From NCBI RefSeq assembly GCF_007483665.1, contig NZ_VIQO01000030.1:62001-126000 (forward strand): a stretch of DNA of 64,000 nucleotides, written 5' to 3'. Below, piece after piece: positions 18,586 to 63,413 of the stretch. How positions within the stretch are numbered: position 1 is the stretch's first letter; every line of letters begins with the position of its first letter. Position numbers and translations under genes: made by a program. The DNA is from Catellatospora sichuanensis (GTDB taxonomy: Bacteria > Actinomycetota > Actinomycetes > Mycobacteriales > Micromonosporaceae). Under the pieces are notes generated by a model. That model did not search any database and had not been told where the DNA came from. It saw only the letters and a list, made by a program, of their open reading frames with translations.

Positions 18586-19854
18586 TCAGCGGGACGGCTT
18601 GCGGTGCATGCGGTAGTGCAGCACGAGGAACGGCAGGCCGAAGACCCGGAACGCGTGCTCGGCCCGCAGCTGCCCGTCCTGCACGTACACGTCGAGGTCC
18701 TCGGCGAAGCCGTGCACGGCGGCCGTGGTCAACCGCCCGTCCTGCGGGTCGACGAGGCTCAGGTAGTGCCCGGGCTGGTCCAGCTTGCTGCGGCTGGTCA
18801 GCACCAGACCGCCGCCCGGCCGGGCCTGCGGCTCCAGGGTCGCCGTGAAACTCGCCTGCGGCAGCGGGAACCCGACGCTGACGTAACCGCGCCCGTCGTG
18901 CCGGTAGGTCGTGTAGACGCCGACGTAGATGGGCTCGTCGGTGTCGGCGAACGAGCGGATCCAGCCGCGGACGGTGATCGCGCCGTCCCGGCTGACGGTG
19001 TCGATCCGGCTGCGTACGCCCCGCTGCGTCTCGCGCTGGTTCATCGGCACGTTGGCCTGCCCCAGCGGCCGGGCGAGCAGGTTGCGGTAGAGCAGGTAAC
19101 CGGGCCGTACCCAGGCACGCCAGCGCGGCTCGATGTCGAGGGTGAACCGGGTGGTGTGCTCGTAGAACTCGCGTACCAGCGGGTCCACGCCGACCGGGTC
19201 GAAGCCTGGACCGGCCAGTTCGTCGAGTGAGGCGACGATGCCGACGTCGGGGGTGTCGGGTCGGTAGTCGCCGCCGAGTTCGGTCGCGAGGTCGGCGATG
19301 TAGCCGGTGCCGACGTAGCGGGTGCGGGCGGCCAGCGGCACCACGAACGGCAGCCGGGCCGGGTCGACCTGCTCGGCCAGCAGGCTCACCTGCGGGTCGC
19401 GGAACAGCAGGGCGGACAGCACCCGGAACGCGGCGACGGTCACCGCCGCGACGATCGCGGCGGGCACGCCCGCCATGGCCCAGCCGAGCGCCGCGCCGAC
19501 CAGCGGGCCTAGCACGACCTTGTGCGGGCGGATGCCCAGCAGCCCCGCGACGCCGCCGGCGATGACACCGACGAGCAGGGAGTTCGCGCCGATCGCGCCC
19601 AGCGCCCAACCGCAGGGTGCGGCCAGGGCGGCGCTCATGACGATGCGGGACCACAGCGCCGGGATCTCGCCCGGCCGCTGCCAGGCCCGTGCCAGCGCGT
19701 CGACCAGCCAGAGCAGGCACGCTCCGACGAGCGCGCCTGCCGCCATCGCCCCGGTGCCCCACGTCGCGGTCGACGCCACGCCCGCGACGGCACCGATCAG
19801 TGCCGCGAAGACGGCCGATCCACGGCGCTCAGGTGCCTCGGCTGCATCGTTCAC
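18586..19854 (-). CDS. Hypothetical membrane protein with soluble C-terminal domain
   Basis: A 422-residue protein of unknown function starting with GTG. The first 150 residues contain about five hydrophobic, Gly/Ala-rich helices (about 15-35, 37-52, 68-88, 90-106 and 115-145). The remaining 270 residues are soluble, with strand-like segments such as [20 protein letters not shown] and [14 protein letters not shown] and a closing HYRMHRK. I recognise no catalytic motif. It precedes the DUF1800 operon by 91 bases in the opposite order of transcription (its end faces the DUF1800 start), on the same strand. Confidence 0.7.
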
Positions 19855-19993
19855 CCGGGCAGGTTAGCGCGACGCTTCGCCCGCCGGGTGCGCGCCTTCG
19901 CGCCCGTCCGGCCTCGGCCGATGCACCGACGTCCACTGCGGACGGTCCGGGCGGGGGGGGCGGCCCGGCGGCCGGCCTGTGCCGCTGCCCGGA

Positions 19994-20039
19994 CATGCAG
20001 GCGGCGGCCACCGGGGTTCCGGTGGCCGCCGCCTGCATG
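19994..20039. terminator. Perfect 21-bp hairpin
   Basis: Two perfect 21-base arms (19994-20014 and 20019-20039) around the loop GGTT. The arm starts CATGCAGGCGGCGGCC. It lies after the stop of the ABC permease (minus strand) and just beside the dispersed 50-bp repeat, so it may be a terminator or part of a repeat element. Confidence 0.7.
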
Positions 20040-20045
20040 ATGCGC

Positions 20046-20095
20046 GGTGACTTTGCTCTGCACCCATTCGCTTGCTCTGCACCCACCGGCGCAAC
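20046..20095. repeat. Dispersed 50-bp repeat, copy 1
   Basis: This stretch recurs at 62236-62285 with a single C-to-T difference. Inside it GCTCTGCACCCA occurs twice, 20 bases apart. Copy 1 ends 12 bases from the stop of the ABC permease; copy 2 ends 45 bases before the polyprenyl synthase. Both are intergenic and have inverted repeats beside them. Confidence 0.85.
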
Positions 20096-20107
20096 GGCGG
20101 GCGAGGC

Positions 20108-20893
20108 TCAGCGCACGCCGTCGCGGTTGTAGCGGGCGCGGGCCCAGTAGAAGCAGCCCACGGTGATGACCACCATCCAGGCCACGGCCAGCCAGGCGCT
20201 GTTGCCGATGCCGGTGCCCAGCAGCAGGCCGCGCACGGTCTCCATGACGGGGGTGAACGGCTGGTACTCGGCGACCCAGCCGACGGCCTGCGGCATGGAG
20301 TCGGTGGGCACGAATCCGCTGCCCAGGAACGGCAGCAGGATCAGCGGCATGGGCAGGTTGCTGGCCGACTCGACGGTGCGCGCAGTCAGCCCGCAGGCCA
20401 CGCCGAACCAGACGCAGGCGAACGAGACCAGGGTCAGCAGCCCGGCCGCGGCGACCCACTCGACCGGCGTCGCGTTCGGACGGAAACCGACGGCCACCGC
20501 CACACCGACGACGACGGCCAGGGCGACGACCAGCTGGATCAGGTTGCCCAGCACGTGCCCGGTCAGCACCGAGGGCCGGAAGATGGCCATGGTACGGAAC
20601 CGGGCGATGATGCCCTCGGTCATGTCCTGCGCCACCCCGATCGCGGTGAGCTGCGGCGCGCTGGCGATGGCGAGCAGCAGGATGCCCGGGGTGACGTAGT
20701 TGGCGTAGGCCGCCCGGCCGCCGCCCGCGGCGATGCCGTCGCCCAGGGTGCCGCCGAAGACGTACACGAACAGCAGCAGCATGATGACCGGGATCCCGAT
20801 GAGGAACGCGATCATCGGGTAGCGGCGGGCGCGCAGCAGGTAGCGCCGCAGCATGGTGGTCGAGTCCCGCAGGGCGTACGCGGTGGTGCTCAT
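20108..20893 (-). CDS. ABC-2 permease, DrrB-like
   Basis: A 261-residue membrane subunit of the daunorubicin-resistance exporter type. It has six hydrophobic segments (about residues 28-48, 65-85, 105-130, 140-165, 175-195, 230-250) and the family features FGGTLGDG in the first outer loop, ITPGILLLAIASA-like VTPGILLLAI and the charged EGIIARFRTMAIFRPSVL coupling loop. It overlaps its ATPase by ATGA. Last gene of what looks like an RHH regulator, DUF4097, ATPase, permease unit. Confidence 0.9.
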   Translation of the reverse strand: MSTTAYALRDSTTMLRRYLLRARRYPMIAFLIGIPVIMLLLFVYVFGGTLGDGIAAGGGRAAYANYVTPGILLLAIASAPQLTAIGVAQDMTEGIIARFRTMAIFRPSVLTGHVLGNLIQLVVALAVVVGVAVAVGFRPNATPVEWVAAAGLLTLVSFACVWFGVACGLTARTVESASNLPMPLILLPFLGSGFVPTDSMPQAVGWVAEYQPFTPVMETVRGLLLGTGIGNSAWLAVAWMVVITVGCFYWARARYNRDGVR

Positions 20894-21855
20894 CGGTTGC
20901 TCGCTCCTTCGAGGGTGGCGGCGGTGTCGGGCCGGCCGGTGAGGGTGAGGAAGACGTCGTCGAGGTCGGGGGTGTGCACGGTCAGCTCGGCGATCTCGAC
21001 GGCGGCGCCGTCGAGCCGGTCGAGCACCTCGCGCAGCGAGCGCACGCCGCCGTCGCTGGGCACCTGCAGGGTCAGCGCGTCGTCGTCGCGCGTCAACGTG
21101 CCGAATACGCGGGCGGCGGACTCCAATTCGGCCGGTCCCGCGAATCGGAGCCGGATGTGGCCACCGGGGATGAGCCGCTTGAGCTCCGCCGGGGTGCCCT
21201 CGGCGATGATCCGCCCGTGGTCGAGCAGGGCGACCCGGTCGGCGAGCTGATCCGCCTCCTCCAGGTACTGCGTGGTCAGGAAGATGGTGACGCCGCCCGC
21301 GACCAGGTTGCGGATGCTGTCCCACATGGTGCGGCGGCTGCGCGGGTCCAGGCCGGTGGTCGGCTCGTCGAGGAAGACCACCCGCGGGCTGCCGACCAGG
21401 GTCATGGCCAGGTCGAGCCGGCGCTTCATACCGCCGGAGTAGGTCGTGACCGGCGTGCCGGCCGCCTCGGTCAGGTCGAAGCGCTCCAGCAGGTCGGCGA
21501 CGCGGCGTCGGCCCTCGCGCCGGTCCAGATGGTTCAGGTCGGCCATCAGGGCCAGGTTCTCCGCGCCGGTGAGGTAGTTGTCCACCGCGGAGAACTGGCC
21601 GGTGAGGCCGATCGCGGCGCGGACGTCGTCGGGGTGGGTGGCCGGGTCGTGACCCGCCACCCGGATCCGGCCCGCGTCGGGGCGCAGCAGCGTGGACAGG
21701 ATGTTGACGGCGGTGGTCTTGCCGGCTCCGTTGGGGCCGAGCAGGGAGAAGACGGTGCCGGTGGGGACGTGCAGGTCGATGCCGTCCAGGACGGTCTTGT
21801 CGCCGTACGCCTTGCGCAGGCCGGTGACCTCGATGGCGTTCTCGGGGGTGGGCAT
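20890..21855 (-). CDS. ABC transporter ATP-binding protein, DrrA-like
   Basis: A 321-residue ATPase of the daunorubicin-resistance exporter type. Walker A GPNGAGKTTAVNIL, signature YSGGMKRRLDLAMTLVG, Walker B VVFLDEPTTGLDPRSR and H-loop FLTTQYLEEADQL are all present, followed by the about 80-residue DrrA C-terminal domain ending PDLDDVFLTLTG. The ATG at 21855 is preceded by AAAGGA six bases upstream. In relatives this gene directly follows a DUF4097 gene; here 327 bases of relic-like DNA separate them, so its transcription may now start in that stretch. Confidence 0.93.
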   Translation of the reverse strand: MPTPENAIEVTGLRKAYGDKTVLDGIDLHVPTGTVFSLLGPNGAGKTTAVNILSTLLRPDAGRIRVAGHDPATHPDDVRAAIGLTGQFSAVDNYLTGAENLALMADLNHLDRREGRRRVADLLERFDLTEAAGTPVTTYSGGMKRRLDLAMTLVGSPRVVFLDEPTTGLDPRSRRTMWDSIRNLVAGGVTIFLTTQYLEEADQLADRVALLDHGRIIAEGTPAELKRLIPGGHIRLRFAGPAELESAARVFGTLTRDDDALTLQVPSDGGVRSLREVLDRLDGAAVEIAELTVHTPDLDDVFLTLTGRPDTAATLEGASNR

Positions 21856-54955: not shown

Positions 54956-55371
54956 GTGGCTCGCTCCTTCGATGAGGGTAGCGCGGTGGGCGGGTGCGGA
55001 CCGGCGGACGCCGTGAGGCGCGCGGGTCGGGACAGCCGTACGCGCGGGCGAAGGCCACGCAGGGGTTCGGCGACCAGACATGGCGCGTCCTCGGGGGCGT
55101 GGGCACGCCCCTGCTGACGGCATTCCCGGGTTCTCACCCGCGAACCGGAGCCGGTCGCCGAAACTCGGTTCCGATATCTATCGACGTCGAATCCTATAGG
55201 AATCTGTCGGACGGGGGAAGACTGCCTCGACAACTTTCCGCCCCGCGATCCTCTGATTTGCTCATTCGCACGAAACTTTTGCTAGATCAGAAAAAAGTAC
55301 GTGTTTCTATCTAGAAACTTTTGCAGATCTAGATTTAATATGGCCGCCACGAACGCGTTACAGGAGGCCCT
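54956..55371. promoter_or_regulatory. Regulatory region of the ebo-like operon
   Basis: A gene-free 416 bases, GC-rich to about 55170 and markedly AT-rich after it. Features: TCCTATAGGA (55192-55201); GAAACTTTTGC at 55272-55282 and again at 55314-55324, 42 bases apart; the inverted repeat GTTTCTA-TC-TAGAAAC (55303-55318). The GAAAC/TTTC pattern resembles operators of LacI-family sugar repressors. The ino-type gene starts with GTG at 55372 after AGGAGG. Confidence 0.6.
55192..55201. promoter_or_regulatory. Palindrome TCCTATAGGA (copy 1)
   Basis: A perfect 10-bp palindrome within AATCCTATAGGAAT, also found at 63533-63542 in front of the secreted glycosidase-like gene. Possible common operator. 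Confidence 0.45.
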
Positions 55372-56613
55372 GTGCGTACTGGTATCTGGCTCGTCGGCGC
55401 CCGCGGCTCAGTCGCGGTCACCAGCATCGTCGGCGCGCTGGCGGTGCGGGCCTCGCTCGCCGACCCGGTCGGCTGCGTCACCGAACTGCCCCCGCTGCGC
55501 CACCCGGCGCTACCGGCCCTATCCGACCTGGTCTTCGGCGGCCACGACGTGTCCTGTGTGGCCCTCGTAAAGAAGGCACACTCGCTCGTCGCGGCCGGCG
55601 TGCTGCCCGCGGCGGTGGTCGCCGCCGTCACCGACGAGCTGGCCGCCGTCGAACCCGACGTGCGGCACGCGCCCGACGGGACCACCCAGCACGACACCAT
55701 CAGCCGCATCGCCGCCGATCTCGTGGACTTCCGCGAACGCCACGGGCTCGCCCGCGTCGTCGTGGTGAACGTGTCCTCGACCGAAGCCATACCCGCCGAC
55801 CATCCCGCGTTCGCCGACGCCGCCGCGCTCGCCGCGGCACTGCACCACGAGCAGGTGCTGCCGCCCAGCGCCCGGTACGCCTACGCCGCGTTCACCGCGG
55901 GCTGCTCCTATGTCGACTTCACCCCGTCCACCGGGGCCCGGCTGCCCGCGCTCGACCAGCTCGCGGCGCGGCACGGCGTGCCGTACGCGGGCAGCGACGG
56001 CAAGACCGGCGAGACCCTGCTCAAGTCGGTGCTCGCACCGATGTTCGCGATGCGCAACCTGCAGGTGCGGTCCTGGTCGGGCACCAACCTGCTCGGCGGC
56101 GGCGACGGCGCGACGCTGGCCCGGCCGGAGGCCAACGCGGCCAAGGTCGCCAGCAAGCAGCGGGTGCTGCGGGAGACGCTCGGCTACGAGCCGGAGGGGC
56201 ACACCCGCATCGACTACGTGCCCGACATCGGCGACCTGAAGACCGCCTGGGACCTCATCACCTTCAGCGGCTTCCTCGGCAGCCGCATGCGGCTCGAGTT
56301 CACCTGGCACGGCTGCGACTCGGCGCTGGCCGCGCCGCTCGTGCTGGACCTGGCCCGGCTCACCGCCGCCGCGCACCGGCTGGGCCGCTCCGGCCCGCTG
56401 CCGGAGCTGGCCTTCTTCTTCAAGGACCCGATCGGCGAGGTTCCGCACGGCCTGGCCGAGCAGTGGCGCGACCTGTGCAGCTGGGTGCAGAGCTGGCAGG
56501 TGCCCGGCGACGAGCCGGTGGCCGCGGACGCGCCGGGCGGCCCGGACACGCAGGCCCGCGCCGAGGCGCAAGCACCCATCCGCCCGGCCGAGCCGGACGG
56601 CGAAACGTCATGA
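55372..56613 (+). CDS. myo-Inositol-1(3)-phosphate synthase family enzyme
   Basis: A 413-residue NAD-dependent cyclase. GIWLVGARGSVAVTSIVGALAV is the NAD loop; TFAAGCSYVDFTPSTGARLP-like AGCSYVDFTPS, GSDGKTGETLLKSVLAPMFAMRNLQV, WSGTNLLGGGDGATLA and YVPDIGDLKTAWDLITFSGFLG are family landmarks of a distinct actinobacterial clade. It converts a sugar phosphate (glucose-6-phosphate in the known reaction) into a cyclitol phosphate. The C-terminus has a variable, Ala/Glu-rich tail of about 40 residues. It leads the operon and overlaps EboC by ATGA. EboD, the cyclase usual in such clusters, is absent, so this enzyme probably provides the cyclic core. Confidence 0.9.
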   Translation: MRTGIWLVGARGSVAVTSIVGALAVRASLADPVGCVTELPPLRHPALPALSDLVFGGHDVSCVALVKKAHSLVAAGVLPAAVVAAVTDELAAVEPDVRHAPDGTTQHDTISRIAADLVDFRERHGLARVVVVNVSSTEAIPADHPAFADAAALAAALHHEQVLPPSARYAYAAFTAGCSYVDFTPSTGARLPALDQLAARHGVPYAGSDGKTGETLLKSVLAPMFAMRNLQVRSWSGTNLLGGGDGATLARPEANAAKVASKQRVLRETLGYEPEGHTRIDYVPDIGDLKTAWDLITFSGFLGSRMRLEFTWHGCDSALAAPLVLDLARLTAAAHRLGRSGPLPELAFFFKDPIGEVPHGLAEQWRDLCSWVQSWQVPGDEPVAADAPGGPDTQARAEAQAPIRPAEPDGETS

Positions 56614-57452
56614 AGCTGCGCGATCTGGCACAGCTGGTCCGCGCACCGGCTGCGCTGTCGGTGCCCGGTGACGCGATCGCCGGGGCGACCGCCGCCGGCA
56701 CGCTGGACGCGCGCACCGCCGGCATCGCGGCCGCGTCGGTCTGCCTGTACTGGGGCGGCATGGCCGCCAACGACTGGGCCGACCGGGAGCTCGACGCCGT
56801 CGAGCGGCCCGAGCGGCCCATCCCGTCCGGGCGGATCAGCGCCGACACCGCGCTGGCCGTGGCGGGCGGCCTCACCGTGGCCGGCCTGGCCCTGGCCGCG
56901 GCCAGCGGCGGCAAGCGCACCCTGGCCACCGCGGGCCTGCTCGCCGGCGCGGTGTGGGCCTACGACGTGAAGTGGAAGAACTCCCCGGCCGGGCCGGCCG
57001 GCATGGCGCTGTGCCGGGGACTGGACGTGCTGCTCGGCGCGAGCACCGGCGACCTGCGCAAGGCCGCCCGCCCCGCACTGGCCGTCGCCGCACACACCTA
57101 CGCGGTCACCGCGCTCTCGCGGCGGGAGGTCAGCGGCACCGACCGGGTGCTGCCCGCGCTGACCATGACCGCGACCGCGGCGGTGGCCACGCACGCCGCG
57201 GGCCGCTCCGGCGGCTGGCTGCCCGCGGTGCTGGCCGGCTGGTACGCCACGCGGTTCGGCAAGGCCCAGCGCGAGGTGCTGCGCCACCCCGACGCGGGCC
57301 GGGTGCGCGCCGCGGTCGGGGCAGGGATCACCTCCCTGCCCGCACTGCAGGGCGCGCTCATCGCACGGGACGGGAAACCGCTGGTCGGAGCCGCGGTCGC
57401 GACCGCCGCCCCGGCCGGCGCCAAGCTGGCGAGGATGGTGTCACCCACATGA
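56610..57452 (+). CDS. eboC: EboC-like UbiA-family prenyltransferase
   Basis: A 280-residue membrane prenyltransferase with about seven to eight TM segments. The first Asp-rich motif is NDWADRELD (about residues 50-58) in GGMAANDWADRELDAVERPERPIPSGRIS; the second acidic site is around YDVKWKNSP, weaker than in UbiA. It should attach a polyprenyl chain to an acceptor inside the membrane. In the ebo cluster this is EboC; the polyprenyl diphosphate synthase at 62331 could supply the donor, and the cyclase before it the acceptor. Both neighbours overlap it by ATGA. Confidence 0.9.
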   Translation: MKLRDLAQLVRAPAALSVPGDAIAGATAAGTLDARTAGIAAASVCLYWGGMAANDWADRELDAVERPERPIPSGRISADTALAVAGGLTVAGLALAAASGGKRTLATAGLLAGAVWAYDVKWKNSPAGPAGMALCRGLDVLLGASTGDLRKAARPALAVAAHTYAVTALSRREVSGTDRVLPALTMTATAAVATHAAGRSGGWLPAVLAGWYATRFGKAQREVLRHPDAGRVRAAVGAGITSLPALQGALIARDGKPLVGAAVATAAPAGAKLARMVSPT

Positions 57453-58753
57453 GCCTGCGATTCGGATACGGCACCAACGGCTTCGCCAACCACCGGCTGG
57501 CCGACGCGCTCGACGTCATCGCCGAGCTGGGCTACGCGGGCGTCGCGCTGACGCTCGACCACGCGCACCTGGACCCGTACGCCCCGGATGTGAAGGACCA
57601 GGTCGCCCGGACCGCGCGGCTGCTCGCCGAGCGGGAGCTGGGCGTGGTCGTGGAGACCGGGGCGCGCTACCTGCTCGACCCTCGGCGCAAGCACGCGCCG
57701 ACCTTCCTGCACGACGACGCCCACCGCCGGGTCGACTTCCTGAAACGGGCGATCGACATCGCCGAAGGGCTGAACGCCGAGGCGGTGTCGTTCTGGGCGG
57801 GTGTGCGCCCGGCCCACGTGTCCGCCGAAGTCGCCTGGCAGCTGCTGGCCGAGGGCTGCGCCGAGGTCGTCGGCTACGCCGCCGAGCGTGGTGTGGCAGC
57901 GGGCTTCGAGCCCGAGCCGGGCATGCTGGTCGAGACGCTCGCCGACTGGGCGCGGCTGCGCGAGCTGGTCGGCGCGGACCTCAAGCTGACCCTCGACATC
58001 GGGCACTGCCGCGCCAACGAGCCCACCGACGTCGCCGAGTGCGTGCGTATCGCCGGACCGCACCTGGTCAACGTGCAGATCGACGACATGCGCCGCGGTG
58101 TGCACGAGCACCTCGAATTCGGCGCGGGCGAGATCGACTTTCCGCCGGTGCTGCGGGCGCTGGCCGAGACCGGATACCGCGGCCTGGTCGCCGTCGAGCT
58201 GCCCCGGCACTCGCACGCCGCACCCGACGTCGCGGCCCGGTCACTGACCTTCCTGCGCGCCGCACAGTGGCTCGGCGAGGCGCTCGGCCAGCTCGCCCGT
58301 GACCCCGCCGCGATCGCGACGCTGCTGCCCGCGGCCCGCCGCCGGGTCGGCCGCGCCGCCGCCGAGGACGCCCGGGTGCGCCTGCTCGGCGCCGTCGAGC
58401 TCACCCCGGACGCGGCCGCGGAGCTCTACCGCTACGGCGACAACGACGAGAAGCGGGCGGTGCTGCTCGCCTGCCCGCAGCCGGACCTGGTCCGCGACGC
58501 GTTGCGCAGCAACGACACCCGGCTGGTGGCCGCCGCGCTCGGCCCCGCCGCCCGGGACCTGCCCGACGCCGAATGGCGGCAGGGCGTGCTCAAGAGCGTG
58601 TTCATGGGCCTGCCGCTGTCCGGCGTCGACGGACTGGCGTTACGGGCCGACGCCGAGCTGGGCCGGATGCTCGCGGCGCTGCGCCGCGAGCGCGAGGCGG
58701 CCGGCCGCACCATGCCCGACGACGCCGTCGACCTCCTGGAGAGGCTGCATTGA
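57449..58753 (+). CDS. eboA: TIM-barrel sugar isomerase/epimerase fused to EboA
   Basis: A 434-residue two-domain protein. Residues 1-275 are a xylose-isomerase-like AP-endonuclease-2 barrel (RFGYGTNGFANHRLADALDVIAELGYAGVALTLDHAHLDPY, GFEPEPGMLVETLADW, TLDIGHCRANEP, NVQIDDMRRGVHEHLEFGAGEIDFPP), with metal-binding Glu, Asp and His in place. Residues about 290-434 are the EboA domain: RVRLLGAVELTPDAAAELYRYGDNDEKRAVLLACPQPDL and LKSVFMGLPLSGVDGL. In other phyla these are separate genes. The fusion implies that EboA works beside the isomerase. It overlaps EboC by ATGA and the TatD gene by one base. Confidence 0.88.
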   Translation: MSLRFGYGTNGFANHRLADALDVIAELGYAGVALTLDHAHLDPYAPDVKDQVARTARLLAERELGVVVETGARYLLDPRRKHAPTFLHDDAHRRVDFLKRAIDIAEGLNAEAVSFWAGVRPAHVSAEVAWQLLAEGCAEVVGYAAERGVAAGFEPEPGMLVETLADWARLRELVGADLKLTLDIGHCRANEPTDVAECVRIAGPHLVNVQIDDMRRGVHEHLEFGAGEIDFPPVLRALAETGYRGLVAVELPRHSHAAPDVAARSLTFLRAAQWLGEALGQLARDPAAIATLLPAARRRVGRAAAEDARVRLLGAVELTPDAAAELYRYGDNDEKRAVLLACPQPDLVRDALRSNDTRLVAAALGPAARDLPDAEWRQGVLKSVFMGLPLSGVDGLALRADAELGRMLAALRREREAAGRTMPDDAVDLLERLH

Positions 58754-59601
58754 TGCGCATCTTCGATCCGCACATCCACATGACCTCGCGCACCACCGAC
58801 GACTATGAGCGGATGGCGGCGGCCGGTGTGCGAGCGCTGGTCGAGCCGGCTTTCTGGCTCGGCCAGCCCCGCACCAACCCCGGCTCGTTCACCGACTACT
58901 TCGACGCGCTCATCGGCTGGGAGCCGTTCCGGGCGAGCCAGTACGGCATCGCGCACCACTGCACCATCGCGCTGAACCCGAAGGAGGCCAACGACCCGCG
59001 CTGCCGCGAGGTGCTGGCCCTGCTGCCGCGCTACCTGGAAAAGGACCGGGTGGTCGCGGTCGGCGAGACCGGGTACGACTCGATGACGCCGGAGGAGGAC
59101 GAGGTGTTCGCGGCGCAGCTGCAGCTGGCCCGCGCGCACGGGCTGCCCGCGCTCGTGCACACCCCGCACCGGGACAAGGTCGTCGGCACCCGGCGCAGCC
59201 TCGACGTGGTCAAGGAGTCCGGCATCGACCCCGGCCTGGTCGTGCTCGACCACCTGAACGAGCCGACCGTCGGCGAGGTCGCCGGCAGCGGCTGCTGGAT
59301 GGGCTTCTCCATCTACCCCGACACCAAGATGTCACCGGACCGCATGGTCGCCATCCTGCGCGAGTACGGCCTGGAGCGGATGCTGGTCAACTCCGCCGCC
59401 GACTGGGGCAAGTCCGATCCGCTGCTCACCCTGCGCACCGGTGAGGCGATGCTGGCGGCCGGGTTCAGCGACGACGACGTGGACCGGGTCCTGTGGCGCA
59501 ACCCGGTCGAGTTCTACGGCCAGTCCGGCCGCCTCGACCTCGACGAGGCCGACACCGAGGCCACCTTCGCGGGCAACTCGATCCTGCGCGGGGGTTCGTG
59601 A
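58753..59601 (+). CDS. eboB: EboB, TatD-family metal-dependent hydrolase
   Basis: A 282-residue barrel hydrolase. FDPHIHMTSRT is the metal-binding HxH, VVAVGETGYDSM holds the Glu, LPALVHTPHRD the third His, LDHLNEPT the fourth, and LVNSAADWGKSDPLL the final Asp. TatD-like proteins in ebo clusters (EboB) differ from the nuclease family and probably act on a small metabolite or lipid-linked intermediate. Overlaps both neighbours by one base (TGATG), so translation is continuous across the operon. Confidence 0.9.
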   Translation: MRIFDPHIHMTSRTTDDYERMAAAGVRALVEPAFWLGQPRTNPGSFTDYFDALIGWEPFRASQYGIAHHCTIALNPKEANDPRCREVLALLPRYLEKDRVVAVGETGYDSMTPEEDEVFAAQLQLARAHGLPALVHTPHRDKVVGTRRSLDVVKESGIDPGLVVLDHLNEPTVGEVAGSGCWMGFSIYPDTKMSPDRMVAILREYGLERMLVNSAADWGKSDPLLTLRTGEAMLAAGFSDDDVDRVLWRNPVEFYGQSGRLDLDEADTEATFAGNSILRGGS

Positions 59602-60719
59602 TGCGGCTGCGCGACGCCGACGGCGCGACGGTGCACCTGGCGTACTGCACGAACGTGCACGCCGCGGAGGACTTCGACGGGGTGCTGTCCCAGCTGGACC
59701 GCTTCGCCGTGCCGGTGCGCGAGCGGCTCGGCGTCGACCTGCTCGGGCTCGGCCTGTGGCTGGCCGCCCCGGTCGCGCGGGCCCTGGCCGAGCAGCCGCA
59801 GCTGCGCGGCAAGCTGCGGCGCGAGCTGACCGCGCGGGGGCTGGAGACGGTGACGCTCAACGGCTTCCCGTACCAGGCGTTCCAGGCGCCGGTGGTCAAG
59901 CACGACGTGTACCTGCCGGACTGGACCGACCCGCGTCGCCTGCGCTACACCCTGGATCTGGCGCTGGTGCTCGCCGAGCTGCTGCCCGACGACGCGGCCC
60001 GCGGCTCCATCTCGACGCTGCCGCTGGCCTGGCGCGAGCCGTGGGACCGCAGGCGCTTCCGGGCCGCCAAGGCGCAGCTGGACGAGCTGGCCGCGGGCCT
60101 GGCCCAGGGCGAACGCCCGATCCGGGTCGCGCTGGAGCCCGAGCCAGGCTGCGTGGTGGAGTCCACCGACCAGGCCGTCGCGGCGCTGTCTGCGGTGGCC
60201 AGCGAGCACCTGGGCGTCTGCGTCGACCTGGCGCACCTGGCCTGCGGCTGGGAGGACCCGGTCGACGCGGTGGCGAAACTGAAGGCGGCCGGGGTCGCCG
60301 TGGTCAAGGTGCAGGTCTCGCAGGCCCTGGAGGTCGAGGACCCGGAAGCGGCCCGGCAGGTACTGGCGGCGTACGCCGAACCGCGTTTCCTGCACCAGAC
60401 CCGCAGCTCGGCCGGCGAGCGCTTCGACGACCTGCCGCAGGCCCTGGCCTCCGACGCGCCCGGACCGTGGCGCATCCACTTCCACGCGCCGCTGCACGCC
60501 GCCGCGCTCGAACCGCTGCGCACCAGCTCCACGGTGCTGCGCGAGGGCCTGGCGGCACTGCTGACCAACAGCGACTGCGACCACTTCGAGGTCGAGACGT
60601 ACACCTGGGACGTGCTGCCGCCGTCGGCCCGCCCCGTCGACGACGCCGGGCTGGCCGAGGGCATCGCCGCCGAGCTCGCCTTCGCCCGCGACCAGTTCGC
60701 CGCCCTGGGGGTCTCGTGA
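59601..60719 (+). CDS. eboE: EboE, metabolite-traffic xylose-isomerase-like protein
   Basis: A 372-residue barrel protein of the EboE family. It has VHLAYCTNVHAAEDFDGVLSQLDRF at the start, VTLNGFPYQAFQAPVVKHDVYLPDWTD, VALEPEPGCVVESTDQAV, VCVDLAHLACGWEDP, KVQVSQALEVED and RIHFHAPLHAA, with the residues that coordinate metal in relatives (Glu, Asp, His, Glu). It is annotated as a metabolite-traffic protein in other bacteria because ebo genes are needed for export of a natural-product precursor to the periplasm in cyanobacteria. It overlaps EboF by four bases (GTGA). Confidence 0.9.
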   Translation: MRLRDADGATVHLAYCTNVHAAEDFDGVLSQLDRFAVPVRERLGVDLLGLGLWLAAPVARALAEQPQLRGKLRRELTARGLETVTLNGFPYQAFQAPVVKHDVYLPDWTDPRRLRYTLDLALVLAELLPDDAARGSISTLPLAWREPWDRRRFRAAKAQLDELAAGLAQGERPIRVALEPEPGCVVESTDQAVAALSAVASEHLGVCVDLAHLACGWEDPVDAVAKLKAAGVAVVKVQVSQALEVEDPEAARQVLAAYAEPRFLHQTRSSAGERFDDLPQALASDAPGPWRIHFHAPLHAAALEPLRTSSTVLREGLAALLTNSDCDHFEVETYTWDVLPPSARPVDDAGLAEGIAAELAFARDQFAALGVS

Positions 60720-62089
60720 ACAAGCCACTCGTCGTGCTGAACGTGGTCGGGCTGACGCCCCGGCTGCTGGCGCACATGCCCCGGCTGCGCGCCGCGTTCG
60801 CCGGCGGGTTCACCGCCCGGCTCGACCCGGTCGTGCCCGCGGTGACCTGCTCGGTGCAGGCGACCTTCCTCACCGGCGAGACCCCGGCCGGGCACGGCAT
60901 CGTCGGCAACGGCTGGTACTTCCGCGACCTCGGCGAGGTGCTGCTGTGGCGCCAGAGCCACGCGCTGGTCGGCGGAGAGCGGGTCTGGGACGCGGTGCGC
61001 CGGGACCGGCCCGGCTACACCGTGGCCAACATCTGCTGGTGGTATGCCATGGGCGCGGACGTCGACTGGACCATCACGCCACGGCCGATCTACCGCGCCG
61101 ACGGCCGCAAGGACCCCGACTGCTACACCGTCCCGGCGGAACTGCACGACGAGCTGCCGACGTTCCCGCTGTTCAGCTACTGGGGGCCGGGCGCGGGCAT
61201 CGCCTCCTCGGCCTGGATCGCCGCAGCGGCGGTGCACGTGATGGCCACCCGCAACCCGGACCTGACCCTGGTGTACGTCCCGCACCTCGACTACGACCTG
61301 CAGCGTTTCGGCCCGTCCGCGCCGCAGGCGGCGGCCGCCGCCGCCGAGCTGGACGCCACGCTCGGCCCGCTGCTCGACGCCGCCGCCGCGCGGGGTGCCG
61401 CCGTCGTCGCGCTGTCGGAGTACGGCATCACCGACGTGTCCCGTCCGGTGCACGTCAACCGGGTGCTGCGCGCCGCGGGGCTGCTGCAGGTGCACACCCA
61501 GGACGGCATGGAATACCTGGACCCGTGGACCTCGCGCGCCTTCGCGGTCGCCGACCACCAGGTCGCCCACGTGTACGTGCGCGATCCCGCGGACATCGCC
61601 GCAGTGGCGAAGCTGTGCGCCGAGCTGCCCGGCGTCGGGCAGGTGCTCGACGAGTCCGGCAAGGCCGGGCAGGGCCTGGACCACGAGCGCAGCGGCGAAC
61701 TGGTGCTGCTGGCCGAGCCGGATTCCTGGTTCACCTACTACTACTGGCTCGACGACGAGCGCGCACCGGACTTCGCCACCCACGTGGAGATCCACCGCAA
61801 GCCCGGCTACGACCCCGCGGAACTGCTGTTCGACCCTTCCGGTCCGGGTGCGGCCAAGGGGCGGGCGGCCAAGGCGCTGGTGCGCAAGAAGCTCGGTATG
61901 CGATACCGGATGAATGTCGTCGGCCTGGACGCCGGAGCGGACGCGATCCGCGGCTCGCACGGCCTGCTCCCGCCCGGCCCGGACGACGCCCCGGTGCTCC
62001 TGTGCACCGACCCCGCCGCGGCCGTCGACCGCATCGCCGCCACCGACGTGAAAGCCCTCCTCCTCCGCCTGTCCGGCGGCCCGTCATGA
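60716..62089 (+). CDS. eboF: EboF, alkaline-phosphatase-superfamily phosphodiesterase
   Basis: A 457-residue enzyme of the nucleotide pyrophosphatase/phosphodiesterase type, starting with GTG 60716. It lacks a signal peptide: LVVLNVVGLTPRLLAHMPRL. The nucleophile Thr/Ser lies in VPAVTCSVQATFLTG, metal ligands in YVPHLDYDLQRFG and ALSEYGITDVSRPVHVN, and the last His in IRGSHGLLP. Members hydrolyse phosphodiesters or pyrophosphates, here perhaps removing a phosphate from a lipid-linked intermediate. It ends the tight block; 241 bases with repeats separate it from the polyprenyl synthase. Confidence 0.9.
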   Translation: MNKPLVVLNVVGLTPRLLAHMPRLRAAFAGGFTARLDPVVPAVTCSVQATFLTGETPAGHGIVGNGWYFRDLGEVLLWRQSHALVGGERVWDAVRRDRPGYTVANICWWYAMGADVDWTITPRPIYRADGRKDPDCYTVPAELHDELPTFPLFSYWGPGAGIASSAWIAAAAVHVMATRNPDLTLVYVPHLDYDLQRFGPSAPQAAAAAAELDATLGPLLDAAAARGAAVVALSEYGITDVSRPVHVNRVLRAAGLLQVHTQDGMEYLDPWTSRAFAVADHQVAHVYVRDPADIAAVAKLCAELPGVGQVLDESGKAGQGLDHERSGELVLLAEPDSWFTYYYWLDDERAPDFATHVEIHRKPGYDPAELLFDPSGPGAAKGRAAKALVRKKLGMRYRMNVVGLDAGADAIRGSHGLLPPGPDDAPVLLCTDPAAAVDRIAATDVKALLLRLSGGPS

Positions 62090-62122
62090 CGCCCCGCCTG
62101 CGCGCCGGGCGGCTCCGGTCCT

Positions 62123-62182
62123 GCAGTTTCGGGGAAACTGCGCGAATGCGGGCGGTCGATGGTGCAGTTTCCCCGAAACTGC
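62123..62182. repeat. Nested inverted repeat
   Basis: GCAGTTTCGGGGAAACTGC (62123-62141) and its exact reverse complement (62164-62182), 22 bases apart. Each copy is itself a hairpin with 8-bp arms GCAGTTTC/GAAACTGC. It could be a terminator of the eboF block or a small repeat element; the 50-bp dispersed repeat begins 53 bases later. Confidence 0.8.
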
Positions 62183-62235
62183 GGTTCACCCCGTGGGGGG
62201 TGCGGTGGTGGGAGGGGCGGGTGGAGTTCCCGTGT

Positions 62236-62285
62236 GGTGACTTTGCTCTGCACCCATTTGCTTGCTCTGCACCCACCGGCGCAAC
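62236..62285. repeat. Dispersed 50-bp repeat, copy 2
   Basis: The second copy of the sequence at 20046-20095; 49 of 50 bases match. It lies 45 bases before the polyprenyl-synthase start codon, after eboF and its inverted repeat. Confidence 0.85.
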
Positions 62286-62330
62286 ACGTGGCCGCCGGGT
62301 GTTCGAGCCTGTGCGGGCCGGGGGTGCGCC

Positions 62331-63413
62331 GTGACGCTCGCGCCTGCGCCGACGCCGCTGGCGGCGCGCATCGACGCGGTGCTGGCCGGGTTCGTGGACG
62401 GGCAGCGGCTACTGTGGCCGGACGATGAGTTGCGGCCGATGCTGGACACGGTGCGGCGGTTCATCCTCACCGGTGGCAAGCGGCTGCGGCCGGCGTTCTG
62501 CTACTGGGCCTGGCGCGGGGTTGCCGCGCCCGAGGATCGGGGCGAGGACCAGGCGGCGGTGACCGCGGGCGCGGCGCTGGAGCTGTTCCACTGCTTCGCG
62601 CTGATCCACGACGACATCATCGACGCGGGCAGCCGCCGCCGCGGCCAGCCGTCCCTGCACGAGGAGTTCGCCGCGGCGCACGCGCGGCACGGCTGGCGCG
62701 GTGACGCGCGCTCGTTCGGCCGCAACACCGCGCTGCTCTGCGGGGACCTGTGCGCGATGTGGGCGGAGGAGCTGTTGGCCGGCTGCCCGGCCGGGCCGGT
62801 GCGGCTGGCCCAGGCGCAGCGGCTGTTCGCGGTGATGCGGGCCGAGGCGGTGGCGGGGGAGTACCTGGAGGTCGTCGCGCAGGCGATGGGCGACTTCGGG
62901 TCTGGCGCGCGGCAGCGGGCGGCACGGGTGATGCAGCTGAAGACGGCCCGGTACTCGGTGGTGCGACCGCTGCAGATCGGGGCCGTGCTGGCGGGGGCGA
63001 GCGACGCGGCGCTGGACGGGCTGGCGGCGTTCGGGGAGCCGCTGGGGGAGGCGTTCCAGTTGCGTGACGACGTGCTGGGGGTGTTCGGCGATCCGACGCG
63101 CACCGGCAAGTCGGTGCTGGACGACCTGCGCCAGGCCAAGCCGACGACGCTGCTGGCGGAGGCGTTCGCGCGGGGGGATGTCCGATCGCGTGCGGTGCTG
63201 TCGGCACACGTGGGGGCTGCGGGTCTGGACGAGGCGGGCGCGGCGCGGGTGCGTGCGGTGATGGCGGAGTCGGGGGCGCTGGCCGCGGTGGAGGAGCGGA
63301 TCGCGGCGGCCCGCGCCGAGGCGCTGCGGGCGCTGGAGTTCCTGGATGTGGCGGAGGAGTCGCGGCAGGCGCTGGGGGCGCTGGCCGACTTCGTGGCGAG
63401 CAGATCGGTGTGA
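62331..63413 (+). CDS. Polyprenyl (geranylgeranyl-type) diphosphate synthase
   Basis: A 360-residue trans-prenyltransferase starting with GTG 62331 after GGGGGTG. It has GKRLRPAFCYWAW, the first Asp-rich motif LIHDDIIDAGSRRRG (DDxxD, about residue 95), the LQIGAVLAGAS helix and the second motif FQLRDDVLGVFGDPTRTGKSVLDDLRQAKPTTLL. It adds isopentenyl units to an allylic diphosphate; chain length cannot be read with certainty. It follows the ebo-like block by 241 bases and probably provides the donor for EboC. The reading upstream (from 62262) covers the repeat and is not coding. Confidence 0.88.
   Translation: MTLAPAPTPLAARIDAVLAGFVDGQRLLWPDDELRPMLDTVRRFILTGGKRLRPAFCYWAWRGVAAPEDRGEDQAAVTAGAALELFHCFALIHDDIIDAGSRRRGQPSLHEEFAAAHARHGWRGDARSFGRNTALLCGDLCAMWAEELLAGCPAGPVRLAQAQRLFAVMRAEAVAGEYLEVVAQAMGDFGSGARQRAARVMQLKTARYSVVRPLQIGAVLAGASDAALDGLAAFGEPLGEAFQLRDDVLGVFGDPTRTGKSVLDDLRQAKPTTLLAEAFARGDVRSRAVLSAHVGAAGLDEAGAARVRAVMAESGALAAVEERIAAARAEALRALEFLDVAEESRQALGALADFVASRSV

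Follow-up and report, generated by a model that had tools for sequence, protein, structure and literature searches.

An ebo operon variant that carries an inositol-phosphate synthase and a TIM-barrel protein and lacks EboD

The ebo gene cluster described here occupies positions 55372-62089 of the + strand in a 64,000-nucleotide stretch of Catellatospora sichuanensis DNA (the window), on contig C21 of the 9.45-Mb genome; genomes, contigs and loci are designated below by our own G, C and L numbers. It belongs to a real, widespread and little-noticed variant of a known system. Judged by co-occurrence, synteny and conserved residues, a myo-inositol-1-phosphate synthase (Ino1) paired with a TIM-barrel protein (TIM), and the cyclase EboD, are alternatives in the ebo context. 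In actinobacteria, the operon has Ino1 and TIM as constant members and lacks EboD; in planctomycetes, the two occur together and to the exclusion of EboD, and lineages have switched repeatedly between the two states. The reading that we favour, with moderate confidence, is that these two enzymes, non-homologous to EboD, jointly substitute for it and supply a cyclitol to the prenyltransferase EboC.

The classical ebo operon (eboA-F) and the cluster in the window share an EboA domain, a TatD hydrolase, a UbiA prenyltransferase, EboE and a PF01663 enzyme, all in one operon. The window variant differs in having no EboD, in having Ino1 and an extra TIM barrel instead, and in an EboC that falls under the cut-off of the NCBIfam EboC model. 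The order of its six genes is Ino1-like, EboC-like, TIM-EboA fusion, EboB-like, EboE and EboF-like and, according to the open reading frame coordinates, every start overlaps the preceding stop by 1-4 bases. The first gene (55372..56613, GTG start) encodes an Ino1-like protein of the archaeal type, assigned from Pfam, NCBIfam and PDB matches and a tree, in which the NAD-binding and catalytic domains are both present (PF07994, 161 bits; PF01658, 108 bits) and which fails the mycothiol INO1 model TIGR03450 (26 bits, cut-off 638). The second (56610..57452) encodes the EboC-like UbiA prenyltransferase (PF01040); its best NCBIfam model is NF045897, "SCO3242 family prenyltransferase" (355 bits, cut-off 260), and it stays below the cut-off of the EboC model NF035940 (131 bits versus 250). 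In the third protein (57449..58753), a TIM barrel of the keto-sugar epimerase/IolE-like type (about residues 1-285; PF01261, AP_endonuc_2, 135 bits) precedes a C-terminal EboA domain (residues 306-429) that is above its cut-off (NF035938, 116 bits versus 50). The TIM protein fits no named equivalog, the NCBIfam models listed all being far below cut-off. The EboB-like TatD-family metal hydrolase follows (58753..59601; PF01026), whose search matches Deinococcus EboB at 205 bits, then EboE (59601..60719; NF035939, 405 bits versus 250) and the EboF-like alkaline-phosphatase superfamily phosphodiesterase (60716..62089, GTG start; PF01663), which as a query matches non-actinobacterial plasmids, for example those of Ketogulonicigenium, Deinococcus and Azospirillum. 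Even though no EboB- or EboF-specific model matched the window proteins in the Pfam and NCBIfam scan, the right families adjoin EboE. The six genes form a real operon, the order of which recurs across many actinobacterial genera. The original prediction, made from this DNA alone, of six overlapping genes and a nearby polyprenyl diphosphate synthase agrees with the coordinates, and each gene has family-level support from Pfam or NCBIfam.

EboE is found in 14 of 296 sampled Actinomycetota genomes, 13 of them exceeding the model cut-off. With the window Ino1 as query, 198 of the 296 genomes match at an E-value of 1e-3, and 13 reach at least 313 bits, a line chosen after the gap to the next score, 235, had been seen. 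All 13 fall among the 14 EboE genomes (Fisher p=8.5e-22), and the fourteenth, G279, has an Ino1 at 230 bits on a different contig. The ebo block of that genome (L040, on C21) contains neither TIM nor Ino1, and an adjacent Ino1-TIM pair lies on C26 (L142). Since its EboE is without the middle part, the block may be decayed, and the split is left unused as support.

A larger set of 75 EboE loci comprises 57 of the 58 loci from a scan of named genomes for EboE, 15 that come from the sample together with the window's genome, and three Streptomyces plasmids; it takes in the window, the second cluster of its genome and ten other Catellatospora loci. No two of the EboE pieces are identical, and 15 pairs exceed 97% identity. 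The decayed-looking block L040 and a planctomycete locus, L102, both without Ino1, stand outside this set. At least 6 kb of DNA lies upstream of EboE in 66 loci (65 actinobacterial), and Ino1 is present in 63 of these, the three without it being L028, L081, where EboE is the only gene found and lies almost at the end of the contig piece, and the planctomycete locus L099. EboD-like genes of at least 60 bits occur in none of the 75 loci. By the labels of L045-L102, Ino1 is present in at least one locus for 20 of 25 genera or unclassified groups; the five without it are Cellulomonas, Nonomuraea and Plantactinospora, represented only by loci with little upstream DNA, and two planctomycetes. Recurrence in actinobacterial loci and genomes rules out a chance placement of Ino1 beside the block in one genome, which the original prediction had named as an outcome that would speak against it. 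Its claim that Ino1 by itself takes the place of EboD needs amendment: Ino1 does stand where EboD is missing, and the likely substitute is the pair of Ino1 and TIM.

The window's genome contains four PF01658 proteins: the window copy, one of mycothiol type on C12, one on C3 that is divergent, and one on C4. The C4 copy sits in a second ebo cluster (L025; G000:C4:258000-277000, genes at about 6600-13900 of L025) with the same order of Ino1, EboC, TIM-EboA, EboB, EboE and EboF. The two clusters are 52-82% identical by gene, the EboA domain being the lowest. Near-identical copies of the L025 EboE (98% over about 200 residues) occur in Catellatospora vulcania, paridis and coxensis (L060, L066, L086), which also carry the first, window-type cluster. 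A PF01761 search of the genome for EboD gives one strong match, AroB on C37, and one 23-bit match on C12; tblastn with EboD queries reaches at best 109 and 51 bits on the same two genes, compared with 407-430 bits for Azospirillum EboD on four other EboD loci. Because these matches are AroB or weak, no EboD orthologue is recognised in the window's genome, and the reading of Ino1 survives the search for an EboD elsewhere in it; the C37 gene is itself the AroB reference, so that its own AroB score is circular. The same PF01761 search in six actinobacterial ebo genomes (G000, G204, G128, G268, G279 and G300) finds no EboD by score. The last five of these yield seven matches, six of which fit AroB better than EboD by score. 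The remaining one, in G204 (L170/L184), scores 117 as EboD and 86 as AroB, where two true EboD proteins reach 674-710; the EboD model contains both of these and the AroB model is a single sequence. This protein (L184, G204:C1:3224000-3240000) is a sugar-phosphate-cyclase homologue, neither clearly AroB nor EboD, in an apparent sugar-derived natural product cluster.

In Planctomycetota, EboE is found in 188 of 246 genomes at an E-value of 1e-3 (156 above the cut-off), and the ebo genes are often scattered. Forty-one of the 188 genomes, hand-picked among matches of at least 283 bits, were viewed; G348 and G337, among the top 30 EboE matches, were passed over in picking. Forty, G351 being left out, were searched whole for EboD, Ino1 and TIM: 10 with EboD in the stretch around EboE and 30 without it there, the latter including G296 and G484 (whose EboD lies about 16 kb away on the same contig). 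EboD (at least 269 bits) is present in 17 of the 40, two further matches to the EboD query, at 143 bits, being counted as presumed AroB. Ino1 (at least 216 bits) is present in 21 and TIM (at least 190 bits) in 21, and the two sets of genomes are identical, which is why TIM counts as the second half of the substitute. EboD and an intact Ino1 never occur together (0/40). The Fisher p-value is 1.9e-9 for EboD against Ino1 and 7.6e-12 for Ino1 against TIM (n=40), or 3.8e-8 and 1.7e-10, respectively, when G452 is scored as having both. That genome has EboD plus a 149-bit Ino1-like piece with two stops (L278, on C3), perhaps left over from a switch. Among the 30 genomes not picked for EboD near EboE, seven have EboD, 21 have Ino1 and two have neither (p=1.8e-5). 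On an EboE tree of 61 rows, in which G351, G361 and G430 are unlabelled, the EboD/Ino1 label needs seven switches, six within planctomycetes and at least four on well-supported branches.

With 1.5 kb of flank in view, 5 of the 22 Ino1 loci in planctomycetes have EboC next to Ino1, and 3 of the 21 TIM loci have the order EboC-TIM-EboF. Since EboC adjoins Ino1 or TIM there, the link is also physical in some planctomycetes. Three loci from planctomycetes with weak EboE matches only (L300, L301, L311) show EboC-TIM-EboF and, upstream of it, one more weakly TIM-like gene, which may be a divergent EboE. Across all 246 genomes, TIM is found in 121: it accompanies an EboE match of any strength in 111 (of 188 such genomes) and occurs without one in 10 (of 58; p=1.4e-8; the 111 and 10 were read from genome listings, and this split was made after that by strong EboE had been seen). 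The association with strong EboE only is weak (84/150 versus 37/96, p=0.009).

Among plasmids, 48 records have an EboE match, and 12 were fetched (11 plus the second plasmid of Salipiger). Eight annotated clusters from three phyla other than Actinomycetota (Azospirillum, two Salipiger plasmids, Deinococcus, Mycetohabitans, Ketogulonicigenium, Aureibacter and Roseivivax) all contain a gene annotated as 3-dehydroquinate synthase that is matched by EboD queries, and neither Ino1 nor TIM has a match in these eight. With the model NF004852, two of the EboD proteins score 571 and 531 bits. The PDB relatives of EboD, which include dehydroquinate synthases as well as the 4p53 cyclase and 2-deoxy-scyllo-inosose synthase, single out no substrate. 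The unannotated plasmid of Gemmatirosa (Gemmatimonadota) carries TIM, Ino1, EboC, EboF, EboB and EboE, and a PF01761 search confined to that plasmid, with the chromosome outside its scope, finds no EboD. With Planctomycetota and this plasmid included, the variant is not confined to actinobacteria.

The Ino1 tree was built by a quick method and rooted at the midpoint, and L271, L277 and L171 were left out as short pieces. A branch with 100% support separates the other archaeal-type copies (18 rows) from the ebo copies, and another separates the mycothiol-type enzymes; the comparison with housekeeping Ino1 that had been suggested thus sets the ebo copy apart from the mycothiol type. A branch with 86% support unites the ebo copies of actinobacteria and planctomycetes (38 rows), and Gemmatirosa stands beside them. 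The best solved relative of the window Ino1 is the Archaeoglobus fulgidus inositol-phosphate synthase, 1u1i (238 bits). The two are similar over most of their length and at nine active-site positions examined; the window protein differs in its association with ebo genes and in its separate position in the tree. The PDB entries 3qvw and 3qvx have lysine-to-alanine changes relative to 1u1i at two positions, and both are lysine in the window Ino1. These two, together with seven further active-site positions, make up the nine columns, which are identical in 57 of 57 archaeal-type rows, 39 of them ebo-linked; residue numbers were counted by hand from the alignment to 1u1i, 3qvw and 3qvx.

The sequence relatives of TIM are MJ1311 and IolE, at about 40 bits. 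In its predicted structure (mean predicted local distance difference test score, pLDDT, of 88.7), the best 50 Foldseek matches are mostly keto-sugar 3-epimerases and UlaE, with the 3-keto-glucoside 4-epimerase YcjR also among them and IolE last. Residues E154, D183, H186 and E250 are the same in all 101 sequences examined. By analogy, E154, D183 and E250 are presumably metal ligands, and the fourth putative ligand position holds Q, H or another residue. EboE (predicted structure, pLDDT 93.0) is a TIM barrel with the keto-sugar epimerase fold, in the same fold group as TIM, and its best 50 matches include IolE and the 3-dehydroshikimate dehydratase AsbF. The best solved match of EboC is the DGGGP synthase 6m31, a weak one (25 bits); that of EboB is AF_1765, an uncharacterised protein, and EboF weakly matches phosphonoacetate hydrolase.

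Based on these relatives, Ino1 would convert glucose 6-phosphate to inositol phosphate. TIM may then epimerise or dehydrate the cyclitol, probably in an oxidised form, as its relatives act on ketones next to hydroxyls. EboC would attach a prenyl chain to a hydroxyl, by analogy with its relative DGGGP synthase, which acts on a polyol phosphate, and EboE, EboB and EboF would finish a product that may take part in metabolite export, as a cofactor or as a carrier in the membrane. Both routes, through EboD and through Ino1 and TIM, would supply a cyclitol.

Several observations weigh against such a substitution. The Fisher p-values above ignore kinship among the 40 hand-picked planctomycete genomes, and a tree-corrected test comprises four independent planctomycete pairs, which all go in the expected direction, with EboD and Ino1 opposite, at p=0.125, the floor for four. 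G361 and G430 have EboE and neither EboD nor Ino1, TIM occurs in the 10 planctomycete genomes without an EboE match, and L028 is an ebo cluster without an adjacent Ino1, the second cluster of a genome that also has a complete one. In the Ketogulonicigenium EboD cluster, an annotated sugar phosphate isomerase/epimerase and two Gfo/Idh genes stand beside the ebo genes; this isomerase does not match TIM. Ino1 and TIM also occur together without EboE, about 6 kb apart, in six actinobacterial genomes (G076, G053, G065, G152, G237 and G173; L140, L141 and L143-L146). The interval between them in L140 contains genes for a methyltransferase, a Gfo/Idh oxidoreductase and a YcaO protein, and two more whose products have no Pfam match. 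The pair is therefore portable, used by ebo and at least one other operon, and not ebo-specific. As to the chemistry, Ino1 gives an alcohol in which the phosphate is retained, and EboD-type enzymes give a phosphate-free ketone (PMC5133447). Equal products would need a dehydrogenase and a phosphatase, which the operon does not obviously provide, offering at most EboF. The one assayed homologue of EboC farnesylates quinolines, and inositol and cyclitol are absent from the text of that paper (PMC9235831).

Because enzymes for the oxidation and the loss of phosphate are not obvious in the operon, a different head group stays a serious rival, even if we consider it unlikely: Ino1 and TIM would make another cyclitol than EboD does, the ebo machinery would take either head group, and the final products would differ. 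The two cyclases are unrelated and their chemistry differs, the window EboC has an NCBIfam model of its own, with the scores given above, and Ino1 and TIM also serve the non-ebo operon. Against this stands the retention of EboE through repeated planctomycete switches, which suggests interchangeable products. A far-reaching form of the substitution is slightly more doubtful still. EboD and the pair may be interchangeable routes from glucose 6-phosphate to one six-carbon inosose-type cyclitol, EboD resembling 2-deoxy-scyllo-inosose synthase and not a sedoheptulose-7-phosphate cyclase; the cyanobacterial, algal, planctomycete and actinobacterial ebo products would then form a single, hitherto undescribed family of carrier lipids, prenylated and inositol-like.

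Another explanation is that the product of Ino1 is ordinary inositol phosphate destined for lipids or thiols, the gene being merely located in the operon and actinobacterial ebo needing no cyclitol. Ino1 is a common housekeeping enzyme, its examined active-site residues are kept, and G268 has only its ebo copy among PF01658 genes. The window's genome, on the other hand, has a separate mycothiol-type Ino1 and the ebo copy is set apart in the tree, and the exclusion of EboD and the link to TIM among unlinked planctomycete genes are left unexplained, all of which make this explanation improbable. Least probable, by a little, is an Ino1 with a different sugar phosphate as its substrate or a ring of different size in its product, like the five-membered-cyclitol-phosphate synthase 6k96. 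In favour of this, 6k96 is a divergent Ino1 homologue in the PDB and matches at 46 bits; against it, the window Ino1 matches the A. fulgidus enzyme best, at 238 bits, and conserves the lysines changed in 3qvw and 3qvx.

An isoprenoid-cyclitol ebo product was proposed in 2016 (PMC5133447) and a lipid-carrier role in 2018, in an analysis that left eboD outside (PMC6282210); the prenylated cyclitol and lipid carrier that had been put forward as new for this DNA are thus hypotheses already published. The 2018 paper also reports that in Nostoc punctiforme mutants in each gene of a five-gene cluster fail to export the scytonemin monomer. Unclustered planctomycete ebo genes were described in 2016 as well, with eboD missing from two of three planctomycetes and draft quality as a caveat, and the word "inositol" is absent from the text of that paper (PMC5133447). 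The Ino1 and TIM version offers an explanation for such planctomycetes, the genomes examined here being different ones. A link of Ino1, or of TIM beyond the fusion, with ebo was found in none of the open-access matches listed, subscription papers being outside the scope of the search. In the BE-40644 pathway a cyclitol is likewise prenylated, presumably by a UbiA-type enzyme; it differs in that the cyclitol comes from sedoheptulose 7-phosphate through an enzyme of the superfamily of EboD (PMC5133447). One enzyme is swapped for two unrelated ones of well-known reaction types, which narrows the missing ebo building block to a cyclitol that both routes can reach, and the variant gives defined enzymes and substrates for understanding the ebo product. 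The Streptomyces coelicolor CDA (calcium-dependent antibiotic) region resembles the window in that SCO3242, which gives the NCBIfam family of the window EboC its name, is listed as a transferase, and SCO3243, the next number, as a myo-inositol phosphate synthase; it differs in that both are counted as CDA cluster genes, and the available part of the paper draws no link to ebo (PMC3610822).

The non-ebo locus L140 also holds, by reading, an apparent glycosyltransferase gene, and its pathway looks natural-product-like. In the S. coelicolor region, we take the remaining ebo genes to lie at SCO3238-SCO3241.

The fusion of EboA to a sugar isomerase, stressed in the original prediction, is present here and is a side issue. 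TIM and EboA are both found in 71 of the 75 loci, fused in 19 and as separate frames in 52, and an EboA fusion in Actinobacteria was noted in 2016 as "data not shown" (PMC5133447); as a minority form already noted, it was rejected as the key novelty. The polyprenyl diphosphate synthase (62331..63413, + strand; PF00348), which the original prediction had listed as nearby, follows eboF after a gap of 241 bp and is a lineage-specific neighbour, possibly a separate unit. It occurs in 30 of the 75 loci, after eboF on the same strand in 26, and is absent from the others and from the second cluster of the genome. So far as their genera can be assigned, all 26 belong to the window's family. With this distribution it is a lineage add-on, and it was rejected as a core ebo part.

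Two 19-base palindromes lie between eboF and the polyprenyl synthase gene (62123..62182), each with 8-base arms and a 3-base loop, one with a GGG and the other with a CCC centre. Of seven other Catellatospora loci examined, L045, L048 and L049 hold between one and three copies of the palindrome and L046, L047, L050 and L083 hold none; it is perhaps a small mobile or terminator-like element. The upstream flanks of many actinobacterial clusters (for example L056) contain, by eye, genes for a sugar ABC transporter, a Gfo/Idh oxidoreductase and a ROK-type regulator. In the window's genome, a distant EboE-like protein of 67 bits (L026:8106-9065, on G000:C11) is encoded near an apparent ABC transporter gene. 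ScyE has a periplasmic role in scytonemin synthesis in Nostoc, and on one Streptomyces plasmid a gene annotated as ScyD/ScyE family lies immediately upstream of an ebo cluster of the Ino1 type (L157:4207-5406). On another, a condensation-domain protein and a SARP regulator are annotated close to such a cluster (L158:1-695 and 19841-21080). When neighbours with a condensation domain of the nonribosomal peptide synthetase type or of the ScyE type were sought across the fetched loci, they appeared only in these two loci of origin. Upstream of the window Ino1 gene, at 55272-55332, the direct repeat GAAACTTTTGC occurs twice, 42 bases apart, together with an imperfect inverted repeat, and this region is a candidate operator.

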